From Rhodopseudomonas sp. (GTDB lineage: Bacteria > Pseudomonadota > Alphaproteobacteria > Rhizobiales > Xanthobacteraceae), in contig NZ_JACABA010000003.1 in NCBI RefSeq assembly GCF_013377015.1, positions 343,510 through 407,509 of the forward strand: DNA of 64,000 nt, read 5' to 3'. Of this stretch, positions 55,945 to 59,257 are shown piece after piece. Position 1 is the first letter of the stretch. Each line of letters begins with the position of its first letter. The notes beneath the pieces were generated by a model, which searched no databases, was not told the DNA's origin, and saw only the letters and a list, made by a program, of their open reading frames with translations. The translations under genes were made by a program, and so were the position numbers.

Positions 55945-55970
55945 AAAAAAGCTCCGGTTGGACCGGAGCT
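55945..55970 (-). terminator. rho-independent terminator of the outer-membrane protein gene
   Basis: On the minus strand AGCTCCGGTCCAACCGGAGCT forms an 8-bp stem with a short loop followed by a run of T (TTTTTT), about 65 bp after the stop of the downstream porin gene. It could also slow plus-strand transcripts from the TonB-like gene. Confidence 0.82.
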
Positions 55971-56034
55971 CCAAGTCACGAGAGAGACCAGACGGGGCGT
56001 CGACGCGGAGTCGGCCCCGCGAAATCCTCAATCC

Positions 56035-56736
56035 CTACCGCCCGTTGAAGCGATAGTTCAAATGCACGGCGAAGACGTCGAGATCCTGGCGGATCCGGTA
56101 GATGTCGCCGGTCGAGAACACCAGGTCGCGGCGGCCGAGGAACACATGGTTGTATTCGCCGGCGATCGAAACGTGCTCGGAGAAGGCCAGCTCGAAGCCA
56201 AATCCAGCCGAGGGTCCAAAGCGGGTTTCCGAGGCGGTCGCCAGGGTCAGCCCGGTGCCGGTGTCGAAGACGTCGTATTTGTCGTGGACCCCGCCGACGC
56301 CGCCCTTGCCGTAAAATAGCACGTTATTCAGCGCGTAACCAAGCCGGCCGCCGAACAGGCCGAACGCATTGATCAGCGAGCGGTTGGTTTGCACGCCGGG
56401 GAACAGCAGGCTGGCAGCGCTGCCCCGCGCCTCGCCCCAATCACCCTGCGCCGAGAGGCCGAGCACCCAGCTGCCGACCTGATAGTCGAAGCCCGCCTGG
56501 ACGCCGCCAAAGGCGCCGTCAATTCTTTGATTGCCGTCGGGACCGGTCGGCAACAGCGGCCCGAGATAGTCCCAGCGCTTGTCGGCGTGGATGATGGTGG
56601 CATTGCCGCCGATATAGAAGCCGGTCCAGTCATAGACGGAAGCGACCGGCGCGGCCTTCACCGGCAGGTCGGCGGCCAACGCCGGAGACGCCCCAACCAA
56701 CGCCAGCAGACCCGCACCCCACAAAGCTGATTTCAT
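56035..56736 (-). CDS. Omp25/31-type outer-membrane beta-barrel protein
   Basis: A 233-residue small barrel. The signal peptide is MKSALWGAGLLALVGASPALAADLPVKA, with cleavage after ALA. Repeated amphipathic strands follow (YDWTGFYIGGNATI, GFDYQVGSWVLGLSAQGDWG, NALNNVLFYGKGGVGG) and the last strand ends VHLNYRFNGR. This is the Omp25/Omp31 (OmpA-like barrel) family of alphaproteobacteria. AGGGG lies 7 nt before the ATG, and a terminator follows. It is downstream of, and co-directional with, the cytochrome-porin gene. Confidence 0.9.
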   Translation of the reverse strand: MKSALWGAGLLALVGASPALAADLPVKAAPVASVYDWTGFYIGGNATIIHADKRWDYLGPLLPTGPDGNQRIDGAFGGVQAGFDYQVGSWVLGLSAQGDWGEARGSAASLLFPGVQTNRSLINAFGLFGGRLGYALNNVLFYGKGGVGGVHDKYDVFDTGTGLTLATASETRFGPSAGFGFELAFSEHVSIAGEYNHVFLGRRDLVFSTGDIYRIRQDLDVFAVHLNYRFNGR

Positions 56737-56832
56737 GTCGATCCCCTGAGCTCGCCCACCCGAGCGTCCTTGCTATCCATGTCGCCGCTTTGCGGCGCCT
56801 GCCTTGGATGGAGGCGCCGCCGTTCGATCCCG

Positions 56833-58542
56833 TCAGAACAAGATCGTCGAGTAGAGAATGAACGTGTTCTTGTTATGCTGGGTCAGCGTGTCGCCGTTGT
56901 ACTTGGTGTAGTAGAAGTACTGGGCGCCCAGCCGTGCATTGAACCACGGCCAGTATGGCGCCCGACTGGTGCCGAACGGCAGATAGGCGAGTTCGGCCAT
57001 GAAGCCCGTGGTATCGGGAACGATTCCCCAGTTCGGGTCCGTCAATGTCGGCCCGTACAGGCCGGCGTCGGGCGATCCCCAGGTCCGGAAATATTGTCCG
57101 GTCGCCACCACGCGGTTGTCACCGCCAATCGCCACGGTCGAGCTGAGCCGCAACGTATTGAGCGAGTCGCTCAGGTTCGCGGGCGTCGATGCTCCGACAT
57201 AGCCGGCGTCGTAGCGCTGCTGCTCGCGGATATAGGCGCCTTTCAGGATCACCCAGAAATTGTCGCCGCGGTACTGATACTGGGTGTCGACGCCGATGTC
57301 GGTGTATTTGTTGGTGATCGCATAGGGCGACGCCGCGATAGCGCCGGTCAGATCGAGGGGAACCGGAACGCCAGCCACCGACCATGGAGCAATCTCGAAC
57401 CGGCTGGCAAAGCCGCCGACCATCAGATTGTGATCGCCGAAGCGCTGCTCCAGCGCGATGCGGCCGTAGGGAGCGATGCCGGCGATCTGGCCGAGGCTGC
57501 CGAGCGGATCCGCACCCAACCGGGTCGCCGCCGCGACGCCGAGCGTCTTGTAGCCGGTGGCTTCCAGATACAGCATGTCGTTGATGAACAGGTAGGTGCC
57601 GAGGCCGCCGACGCGCTGGCCATATTGACCGTCGATCACCGTCGAGGTGGCCGGCCCGGTGAAGCCGAGCTGGGTGGTGAAATAGGGATGGGTCCAGGCC
57701 GGCGCCGTGTTCCAGACATCCTGCACGGTCGGATTGTTATGCGCGGTGATGCCGAACAGCACGTCAGTGCCGGCGACCTGGAACGTACTGGCGTAGCGCA
57801 GGTCGACATTGTCCCAGCCCCACGTTCCCTTTGCGGCGTCGATCGCCGGGAAGCCATAGGTCAGCTGGGCGAACACGCCGACATTGTCGCTCATCGCGCC
57901 GCCGCCGAACAAACTGGCCTGCGCCAGCCCGACATTGTCGTTCGCCTTCCAGTGGTTGACGCCGGGCTGCCAATTCGGATCCGCCGCCTGGGTGTGGGTG
58001 TAGCCGGAGATCAGCATGACGGCGAGAGGCGGATACCAGCCCTTTTCCTCATCGGCCTGCTGAACGGCAGCGAACGCATTGTTGATCGCCTGCTGCGGGG
58101 CCGTCGTGGTCTTCTTGCCGTTGTTTTGAGGGCCGGCGTTATCTTGGCCAGCCGTCTGCGCCGCATAGGAGCGCAATTCGGCGGTCGCGTCCTTCGCGGC
58201 GGCGACGCCGGGCACCAGGACGCTGCGGAAATCGTCCACGGTCGGAAAGACCTTGCCCGACGGCGGGATCGGAAACAGCGTCTTGCGGAACGGACCACCG
58301 CCCAGCGTGTAGCCGCCGAGCTTGAAGCGGCGACCGAACGGCGTCAGCCCGAGCACGTCGGTGTGACAATTGCCGCAAGGCTGCGCGGTCTGTCGCGCAA
58401 AAATCGGCAAGGCCTGCGCGGATTGCGTGGTTGCCACCAGCGTGGCCGACGCCAGCAGACCCACCGCCAGAGCACCTATGACGCCGACAATGGTCTTCCC
58501 AAGACATCGACCTAACAGCATGGCACCGCCCCCAATGCGCAA
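56833..58542 (-). CDS. Cyc2-like fused monoheme cytochrome / outer-membrane porin
   Basis: A protein of about 569 residues. A signal peptide (hydrophobic core IVGVIGALAVGLLASATLV) ends at AQA before LPIFARQTAQPCGNCH. The mature N-terminus reads ALPIFARQTxxxCGNCH (heme site Cys56-Cys59-His60) then LTPFGRRFKLGGYT, which fits the signature I know for Cyc2 iron-oxidase cytochrome-porins (AxPxFARQTGxxCxxCH). The remaining 480 residues are beta-barrel-like, with alternating aromatic strands and a C-terminal Phe (ILYSTILF). A TTG at 58542 has GGAGGAG exactly 6 nt upstream and is chosen; the ATG at 58521 is the alternative. The HiPIP gene lies upstream on the same strand. A role in electron uptake or Fe(II) oxidation is inferred. 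Confidence 0.85.
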   Translation of the reverse strand: MRIGGGAMLLGRCLGKTIVGVIGALAVGLLASATLVATTQSAQALPIFARQTAQPCGNCHTDVLGLTPFGRRFKLGGYTLGGGPFRKTLFPIPPSGKVFPTVDDFRSVLVPGVAAAKDATAELRSYAAQTAGQDNAGPQNNGKKTTTAPQQAINNAFAAVQQADEEKGWYPPLAVMLISGYTHTQAADPNWQPGVNHWKANDNVGLAQASLFGGGAMSDNVGVFAQLTYGFPAIDAAKGTWGWDNVDLRYASTFQVAGTDVLFGITAHNNPTVQDVWNTAPAWTHPYFTTQLGFTGPATSTVIDGQYGQRVGGLGTYLFINDMLYLEATGYKTLGVAAATRLGADPLGSLGQIAGIAPYGRIALEQRFGDHNLMVGGFASRFEIAPWSVAGVPVPLDLTGAIAASPYAITNKYTDIGVDTQYQYRGDNFWVILKGAYIREQQRYDAGYVGASTPANLSDSLNTLRLSSTVAIGGDNRVVATGQYFRTWGSPDAGLYGPTLTDPNWGIVPDTTGFMAELAYLPFGTSRAPYWPWFNARLGAQYFYYTKYNGDTLTQHNKNTFILYSTILF

Positions 58543-58978
58543 TCTTCGCTCCTCCCAACGCCGCATTACTCACCGCGCCGCTGCAGCCACCCGCCGAATC
58601 CGAATCCGCGGCGACGGCACTGGTACATTAACTAACAACTACCAAGTCTGCGCAATTGTCCAGATTGGTAGTTCACGGCAACATTGTCAGATATATTTCC
58701 CGATGTGTCTTGCCGGCAACAACCGATATAAGCCTAGACGCAAATCAGTTACGAGTAGTTCGCAAGTATCAAATTACCATAATGATTTAATACGTCGTCC
58801 ATCCGACATTAAGCACCAATAATTCATCTGCCGGATTTGCGATTGCCTGTGTCGCAGCGACGACCGTAGCAACAGCTGGAATTCCAGAACTCAACAGCGG
58901 CCTCGCGCGCTCGAAATGCCTCAGTTCTGAAAGCAACCGGTTGATGCGGTGCTGGGCCGAGGCCCAGCACGCTGATGA
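58543..58978. other. AT-richer intergenic region between HiPIP and cytochrome-porin genes
   Basis: About 435 bp without a gene and less GC-rich than its surroundings, especially 58620-58830. It is long enough to hold a promoter of its own for the cytochrome-porin gene. A perfect hairpin lies at its HiPIP end (listed separately). No coding sequence is seen. Confidence 0.7.
58949..58970 (-). terminator. perfect hairpin downstream of the HiPIP gene
   Basis: GTGCTGGGCC-GA-GGCCCAGCAC is a perfect 10-bp inverted repeat starting 8 bp after the HiPIP stop. There is no T-run behind it on the minus strand, so it may be a weak terminator or an mRNA-stabilising hairpin that separates HiPIP levels from those of the cytochrome-porin. 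Confidence 0.6.
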
Positions 58979-59257
58979 TCAGGCCTTCGCGTTGAACAAA
59001 GTGCACCAGCCATTCGGGCTGACGGGGCCGTCGACCTGGGAGCAATTGCTCGGCGCCGTGAAGTTCTGGCACTTGGCACAGGTCTGACCGCCTTTCGGCG
59101 TCGCCTGGTAGTTGGCCGCCTGCTTGGTCATCTTGGCGGCGAGCACTTCGTTGCTGGTCAGACCGACGAGGGCCACTGCCCCGGCGGTACCAGCGACGGC
59201 CTTGAACAACCCGCGCCGGGTCATCGATGCCGACAATTCACGCGTGATTTTTGTCAT
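58979..59257 (-). CDS. high-potential iron-sulfur protein (HiPIP)
   Basis: A 92-residue precursor. A twin-arginine signal (SMTRRGLFKAVAGTAGAVALVG) ends near VLA-AK, matching Tat export of a folded cofactor protein. The mature part has four cysteines, Cys60, Cys63, Cys72 and Cys85 (TCAKCQNF, SNCSQ, NGWCTLF), in the HiPIP spacing that binds one 4Fe-4S cluster. GGGAGGAAGTT precedes the ATG. It carries single electrons in the periplasm, for example to the photosynthetic reaction centre or an oxidase. Its position directly upstream of the Cyc2-like gene suggests they form one electron-transfer chain. Confidence 0.93.
   Translation of the reverse strand: MTKITRELSASMTRRGLFKAVAGTAGAVALVGLTSNEVLAAKMTKQAANYQATPKGGQTCAKCQNFTAPSNCSQVDGPVSPNGWCTLFNAKA

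Follow-up and report, generated by a model that had tools for sequence, protein, structure and literature searches.

A Cyc2-like cytochrome-porin encoded beside a HiPIP: a candidate outer-membrane electron-entry module in an alphaproteobacterial genome

Phototrophic iron oxidation in Rhodopseudomonas has so far been studied through PioABC, and the high-potential iron-sulfur protein (HiPIP) PioC is reported to be involved in photoferrotrophy (PMC6831781). Cyc2 of Acidithiobacillus ferrooxidans, encoded in the rus operon, is a fused monoheme cytochrome-porin. He et al. 2017 describe Cyc2 homologs as absent from R. palustris TIE-1 and present in several other strains, and the same paper cites a Bradyrhizobium Cyc2 gene whose cluster also encodes a HiPIP and three cytochromes c (PMC5566968). 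Here, we analyzed a window of 64,000 nucleotides (positions 343,510 to 407,509 of contig NZ_JACABA010000003.1, assembly GCF_013377015.1, labelled Rhodopseudomonas sp.), in which genes for a HiPIP, a Cyc2-like protein and a small outer-membrane β-barrel follow one another. We consider it probable that the three products form an outer-membrane electron-entry module, most likely for Fe(II), in which one heme passes electrons to the HiPIP.

The kind of system is already known, both as Cyc2 homologs and in their pairing with HiPIPs, and the new route implied by the first-pass annotation of this DNA has a precedent (PMC5566968). New is this form of it: HiPIP-only, without the PXL consensus and with a long linker. 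Among the titles returned by our literature search, none concerns a Rhodopseudomonas Cyc2 unit with a HiPIP alone, a weak negative given that subscription papers lay largely outside the search.

The cytochrome-porin and its predicted fold

In the screen published by Keffer et al. 2021 (PMC8406198), Cyc2 candidates are selected by length, a CXXCH, a PXFAR motif and a blastp hit (E ≤ 1e-5) to one of the queries drawn from three Cyc2 clusters; PXL, four residues past the CXXCH, is named there as a consensus of all Cyc2 homologs. The window protein carries ALPIFARQT at residues 52–60, in agreement with the Cyc2 motif AXPXFAR[Q/K][T/Y] (A52–T60), and then CGNCH, its sole CXXCH (C64-C67-H68). The spacing of three residues between T60 and C64 is the same in 12 Cluster-1-like rows, and a single CXXCH in 577 residues agrees with the published combination of one CXXCH and a length of at least 365 residues. 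The first-pass annotation had recognized this N-terminal signature as well as the C-terminal Phe, and both are present in the open reading frame at 56833–58566; its start at 58542, however, lies eight codons inside that frame, for which 58566 and M16 (58521) are both possible start codons. A hydrophobic stretch and AQA precede L53 (by eye), with a helix at residues 15–46 in the predicted model. The gene is present in a single copy in the window genome.

The signature does not extend to PXL. The window protein reads L72-G73-L74, three residues past the CXXCH, and residue 72 is L in all four members of its clade (the window clade, see below); 101 of the 108 rows in the family have P there. L74, G78, F81 and K82 are invariant in 108 of 108 rows and lie outside the criteria by which rows were selected, while the invariance of CXXCH and P54 is due to that selection. 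M184, a methionine in 100 of 108 rows, might be the distal heme ligand, which is a guess on our part.

Searches of Pfam gave no family match for the protein, NCBIfam gave no model at cut-off and PDB sequences gave no credible match; a Cluster-1-like protein was likewise without a credible PDB relative. A profile of 12 Cluster-1-like Cyc2 sequences was more informative. Among the 8,022 open reading frames of the fetched loci it recovered its own 12 sequences and, from 115 further Cyc2-like frames with the motif, 114 (a few of them duplicates), and it matched nothing outside Cyc2-like frames at E ≤ 10. Because the profile finds only Cyc2-like frames, its match to residues 52–87 of the window protein (E 4.4e-6 in this small set) is not a chance similarity. 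The family from which the 12 sequences came (f38) accounts for 65 of the 88 matching genomes among 398 Pseudomonadota searched, many of its genomes with two matches; we presume this family to be Zetaproteobacteria, since two Cyc2 types are reported there by McAllister et al. (PMC7029218). With Cluster 1 Cyc2 (Mariprofundus, Gallionellaceae, Chlorobium) the window protein shares the N-terminal motif, the CXXCH and, by the literature, the fused barrel. In contrast, the barrel itself is not confidently alignable, and in our maximum-likelihood (ML) tree about 4 changes per column separate the Cluster-1-like rows from the window group. A search for named Cluster 1 Cyc2 in plasmids found none; only the same Cyc2-like genes matched, over 8–35% of the query.

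An AlphaFold model, computed from an alignment of 61 sequences (60 of the 80 relatives kept from a scan of named genomes, plus the window protein), has a mean predicted local distance difference test (pLDDT) value of 78.3 and a predicted template-modelling score of 0.77, with values of pLDDT below 50 at residues 92–128, 146–152 and 168–177. It places 16 strands between residues 181 and 576, as expected for the 16-strand β-barrel porin domain of Cyc2, and its Foldseek matches are mostly 16-strand porins of the OmpF/PhoE class. In a second look with VIA-align, the top row was 5o78 (Z 21.7, root-mean-square deviation [rmsd] 3.6, 298 residues), with which many OmpF/OmpC rows tie; 5O78 is also the reported best match of the predicted A. 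ferrooxidans Cyc2 (PMC10654088). A Cyc2 profile search and a structure prediction had been proposed along with the first-pass annotation, and the barrel it described from sequence pattern is supported by both the predicted strand count and the porin matches of the model.

Together, these data confirm the window protein as a fused monoheme cytochrome-porin of Cyc2 type. We use the name Cyc2-like and stop short of canonical Cyc2, because motif, heme site, length and predicted barrel agree with the published definition and PXL does not.

The HiPIP and the window clade

HiPIPs are carriers of high potential. The HiPIP of the window contains RRGLFK, and its Cys 60/63/72/85, aligned to PioC (6xyv), have the [4Fe-4S] cysteine spacing of HiPIPs; PioC is also the best solved structure by sequence (E 7.2e-12). 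The profile scores are low, at 20.5 bits against PF01355 (HIPIP; cut-off 22) and 66.2 bits against the NCBIfam model Iro (NF041615), short of the curated cut-off of 100 bits. In a HiPIP tree of 59 columns, which does not resolve the deeper forks, the four window-clade HiPIPs form a supported clade (98/94) separate from six PioC (100/98), and one genome, G169, has both kinds. The window HiPIP is therefore not a borrowed PioC. With no PioB match in the genome in addition to the separate clades, we rejected the assignment of the HiPIP to a PioABC-like system. The first-pass annotation had seen no decaheme here and proposed a route different from PioABC, which agrees with the PioB result: the same model matches in 6 of 16 Rhodopseudomonas genomes and finds nothing in the window genome, PioA itself not having been searched. 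The locus thus resembles PioABC of TIE-1 in its nearest solved HiPIP structure and in the reaction-center genes of its genome, but the TIE-1 conduit is a decaheme and the window module has one heme.

A scan of named genomes gave at least 557 relatives, of which 80 were kept, and 23 of 248 genomes searched in the family of the window genome had a match, some at the N-terminus only. The closest among the matches listed are three genomes of one genus, at 77–81% identity; among the carriers are the R. pseudopalustris strain DSM 123 and a groundwater metagenome-assembled genome (MAG) of Rhodopseudomonas. The first-pass annotation set the module against Rhodopseudomonas iron oxidation, a frame that needs correction: in our genome set the window genome is grouped in one genus (g1) and the Rhodopseudomonas genomes in another (g28). 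For the trees and counts, rows were taken from L035–L172; L040, L052 and L056, and among the 80 named loci L134, L142 and L148, had no motif-bearing frame, the N-terminal-only L020–L027 were not entered, and six loci identical to others, from genomes fetched twice, were dropped.

In an ML tree of 120 proteins (quick method), the window protein and three others form one clade (SH-aLRT 100, stem 0.54), with a 16-row Bradyrhizobium-type clade as sister (joint support for the 20 rows, 95). The anchors of this tree are Cluster-1-like, and the chromosomal A. ferrooxidans Cyc2 and Leptospirillum Cyt572 are outside it. A published sequence network links A. ferrooxidans Cyc2 to homologs from Hyphomicrobiales, Rhodanobacteraceae and Burkholderiales (PMC10654088), groups also represented in our tree.

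The Bradyrhizobium-type clusters are the closest in kind. Their porin-cytochromes are 44–48% identical to that of the window (aligned rows), and a small barrel gene is found at 13 of 16 loci and a HiPIP at 3 of 16. Unlike them, the window clade has a HiPIP in 4/4, adjoining the Cyc2-like gene on the same strand, and diheme cytochromes within 2.5 kb in 0/4 (15/16 in the sister clade). The linker from plug to first strand is 85–92 residues long in the window clade and 24–51 in the sister clade (6–35 in other family rows, 18–19 in Cluster-1-like rows), and the PXL proline is present in 0/4 as opposed to 14/16. The window clade thus has a consistent set of derived traits. In the window genome, the best match to the diheme cytochromes lies elsewhere, at 32% identity and 54 bits.

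Across the wider family, partner counts were made on 88 loci, 20 of 108 rows having less than 1.2 kb of flank on one side. The detector covered HiPIPs and relatives of the diheme cytochromes; monohemes, for example the annotated neighbors of L035 and L038, were scored as neither. A HiPIP or a diheme-type cytochrome lies near 53 of the 88 Cyc2-like loci (HiPIP only 25, diheme-type only 25, both 3, neither 35; Fisher p 0.0034), and proximity of a HiPIP is common (28/88, with at least 13 state changes on the tree). That the two are alternatives was not established: after tree correction, an average of 0.2 of 11 pairs had the diheme-type cytochromes going in the same direction and 3.7 in the opposite one (median p 0.22).

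Inheritance, phototrophy and the proposed electron route

The unit occupies one chromosomal site, with a TonB-like gene on one side and, in 3 of 4 carriers, an amidase gene on the other. Three of 16 Rhodopseudomonas genomes carry the Cyc2-like gene; the flanking acyl-CoA dehydrogenase occurs in 11 of the 16, the three carriers among them. In 8 non-carriers the TonB-like and amidase matches are 428–763 bp apart, and the HiPIP, the porin and the barrel gave no match at E 1e-10; this check covered 8 of 13 non-carriers, the other five having no flanking-gene match at E ≤ 1e-100. Since the site is empty in the examined relatives, the effect of the module is testable by deletion or transfer. Synonymous divergence (dS) between the window and the other carriers is 0.64–0.96 for the Cyc2-like gene and 0.36–0.60 for thiolase and amidase. 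These values, together with the kept site, would fit presence in a common ancestor followed by losses better than recent transfer, although the porin and HiPIP trees disagree on the placement of the window genes. The ratio of nonsynonymous to synonymous divergence (dN/dS) is 0.16–0.26 for the Cyc2-like gene against three carriers, and 0.30 and 0.22 for the HiPIP gene, whose third pair is saturated. Selection on both genes is purifying.

Reaction-center L/M genes are present in 4/4 carriers, as well as in the other genome of the window genus and in one non-carrier, and gave no match in nine sister-clade genomes examined. Two of the three Rhodopseudomonas carriers have no PioB match, one of them R. 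pseudopalustris DSM 123, a culture-collection strain. The phototrophs in which the module occurs thus include genomes with a PioB match as well as genomes that lack one. That PioB and the Cyc2-like gene exclude each other was considered and not shown: among the 16 Rhodopseudomonas genomes, five have PioB only, two the Cyc2-like gene only, one both and eight neither.

Based on these results, we suggest the following route. The Cyc2-like protein would form a 16-strand outer-membrane barrel, plugged by its short N-terminal heme domain. A soluble reductant, most likely Fe(II), would give an electron to the plug heme, from which the HiPIP would pick it up on the periplasmic side and carry it to the photosynthetic reaction center in the light, or via cytochromes to an oxidase. 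The HiPIP would serve here as the only carrier encoded beside the porin, no diheme having been found there, unlike in the closest Cyc2-like clusters. Heme loading and heme position, Fe(II) as donor, inward flow, and the HiPIP as direct partner and its acceptor are steps that we infer. The scheme probably has one analog in the Cyc2–Cyc1 pair of A. ferrooxidans, from which it would differ by a substitute for the cytochrome c4 step, and another in PioC, for the receiving end. In A. ferrooxidans, which we compare by published description only, the partners are the cytochrome c4 Cyc1 and rusticyanin. A more specific version, which we put forward tentatively, is phototrophic Fe(II) oxidation or electron uptake independent of PioAB, through one heme, the HiPIP and the reaction center, in which the HiPIP would have replaced dihemes and the porin would have adapted through its linker of 85–92 residues and an altered heme pocket. 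It raises the question of whether one heme and one iron-sulfur cluster can suffice for electron entry.

The direction of flow and the substrate might be different. Fe(III) reduction, electron exchange with manganese, sulfur compounds, humics or electrodes, or clearance of Fe(II) as a stress response, as opposed to Fe(II)-fed growth, are together unlikely in our estimate, albeit with support from several sources: much of Cyc2 Clusters 2 and 3 is described as uncertain in function (PMC8406198), Cluster 3 is entered in FeGenie as probable for oxidation and possible for reduction (PMC7005843), many bacteria without known iron oxidation are described as having homologs, R. palustris strains included (PMC5566968), and in one paper Fe(III) reduction is tied to Cyc2 isoforms of Acidithiobacillus (PMC10715153). 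The reaction-center genes of the carriers speak for inward flow, which would also better suit a HiPIP of high potential and the role of PioC in photoferrotrophy (PMC6831781).

A number of observations weigh against an electron-entry module. On the side of the porin, the PXL proline, described as aiding heme stability, is gone in 4/4 window-clade proteins; the window protein is the weakest row against the Cluster-1-like profile, scoring over residues 52–87 only; the top Foldseek row, 5o9c, is modest (template-modelling score 0.39 by model and 0.59 by target, rmsd 8.8); and there is no named, biochemically verified Cyc2 among the tree rows. The missing proline and a swollen linker, as well as the long stem branch (0.54) and patchy presence (3/16 Rhodopseudomonas), could mean that the protein is heme-poor or decayed, an ordinary porin that transfers no electrons or is being lost. 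We regard this as very improbable: the heme site is intact, the four residues invariant in 108/108 rows are kept, dN/dS is 0.16–0.26 and the HiPIP is retained in 4/4.

On the side of the pair, the HiPIP and porin genes are separated by a gap of 412 bp, so that they are possibly on separate transcripts. HiPIP dS (1.27 and 1.34, one pair saturated) exceeds that of the Cyc2-like gene (0.64–0.96), and the porin tree nests the window protein inside the Rhodopseudomonas carriers (96, quick method), while the HiPIP tree sets it outside them (99/95). Given this conflict and the dS gap, strict joint inheritance is not established; in addition, the carrier G169 has no small barrel. The HiPIP and the Cyc2-like protein might then be neighbors and not partners, the HiPIP serving photosynthetic cyclic electron flow alone, and HiPIPs with other roles in purple bacteria are on record (PMC10715153). 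Nevertheless, the two genes are together in 4/4 carriers and jointly absent at the 8 empty sites examined, and a HiPIP recurs near 28/88 Cyc2-like loci, which makes mere adjacency rather improbable.

With respect to light, three Bradyrhizobium with dihemes (L092, L095, L099) have reaction-center genes, and a reaction-center match was obtained in two (L110, L115) of the 11 other HiPIP-only genomes tested from Alphaproteobacteria (L103, L105, L106, L108, L110, L115, L137, L152, G434, G305, G251); many of these tested genomes are MAGs of unstated completeness. A general tie between the HiPIP-only state and phototrophy was therefore rejected, and phototrophy does not explain that state. We retain the electron-entry module as the probable reading.

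Gene order, neighbors and further observations

On the minus strand, transcription order is HiPIP, Cyc2-like gene, small barrel and a terminator-like hairpin (Table 1). The first-pass annotation was right that the HiPIP lies directly upstream on the same strand, an arrangement common to the 4/4 clade members, though it did not mention the wide gap, and it overlooked the small barrel gene downstream.

Table 1. Features of the Cyc2-like locus, in window positions
Feature	Position	Strand	Details
Tat-type (twin-arginine translocation) HiPIP	58979..59257	minus	92 aa; Cys 60/63/72/85; gap of 412 bp to the Cyc2-like gene downstream
HiPIP/Cyc2-like intergenic stretch	58567..58978	minus	AT-richer segment
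Cyc2-like fused monoheme cytochrome-porin	56833..58566	minus	577 aa; motif 52-60; CXXCH 64-68
Regions of the Cyc2-like protein			linker 88-179; 16 predicted strands 181-576; mature from about L53 (signal peptide by eye)
Small outer-membrane β-barrel protein	56035..56736	minus	PF13505, 70.3 bits; gap of 96 bp to the Cyc2-like gene upstream
Intrinsic-terminator-like hairpin	55948..55972	minus	stem of 11 pairs and a T tail; follows the small barrel gene; matches the consensus only

The small barrel gene lies within 2.5 kb of the Cyc2-like gene at 16 of 20 loci of the window and sister clades (3/4 and 13/16, respectively) and at none of 88 other Cyc2-like loci (0/3, 0/17 and 0/68), some of which have short flanks. 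The hidden Markov model behind this search was trained on initial hits from these same loci, which makes its E-values non-independent; the counts are independent. The gene looks like an inherited part of the cluster in this lineage.

Six terminator-like sites were found in the region, compared with a shuffle mean of 4.0. GC content is 0.53 at 58500–58999 and 0.63–0.66 across 56000–58499. The intergenic stretch may hold a separate promoter; it contained no sigma-70-like match, and the promoter scan gave nothing above chance. Just 3' of the HiPIP stop, at 58949–58970, a perfect GC-rich inverted repeat is seen by eye (GTGCTGGGCC, 2-base loop, GGCCCAGCAC), which may terminate or attenuate HiPIP transcription.

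The neighbors of the unit are the TonB-like gene (no Pfam match, named by eye) and the amidase, and the wider surroundings include genes for a TetR regulator, a thiolase, an AMP-ligase, a hydrolase, a GDSL lipase, an alcohol dehydrogenase and an acyl-CoA dehydrogenase. Our scans found no other cytochromes within 5.4 kb upstream and 7.8 kb downstream of the Cyc2-like gene. In the other carriers, the positions of TetR, thiolase, AMP-ligase, TonB-like gene and acyl-CoA dehydrogenase are kept in 3/3, the amidase in 2/3 (not G140), the small barrel in 2/3 (not G169) and the alcohol dehydrogenase in 1/3.

Among the relatives, L055, L100 and L101 form a small Bradyrhizobium-type Cyc2-like clade near which HiPIP, diheme and small barrel were all not found (L101 has short flanks). 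In Caulobacteraceae/Sphingomonadaceae-type relatives, FARQT is replaced by FA[A/V/M/D/E/I]QT or YADQT; relatives with such variants include L038, L062, L121, L126, L129, L136, L143, L144, L146 and L147, and a PXFAR-based screen would therefore overlook these Cyc2-like porins. The A. multivorum copy (L040) is annotated in two pieces. L035, on the Acidithiobacillus ferrooxidans plasmid CP084173.1, and H8, on the Acidiphilium cryptum plasmid NC_009469.1, have identical scores and ranges against the window protein; their hosts are acidophiles of different classes, a transposase adjoins the gene in L035, and the identity hints at a recent plasmid-borne transfer of a Cyc2-like gene.

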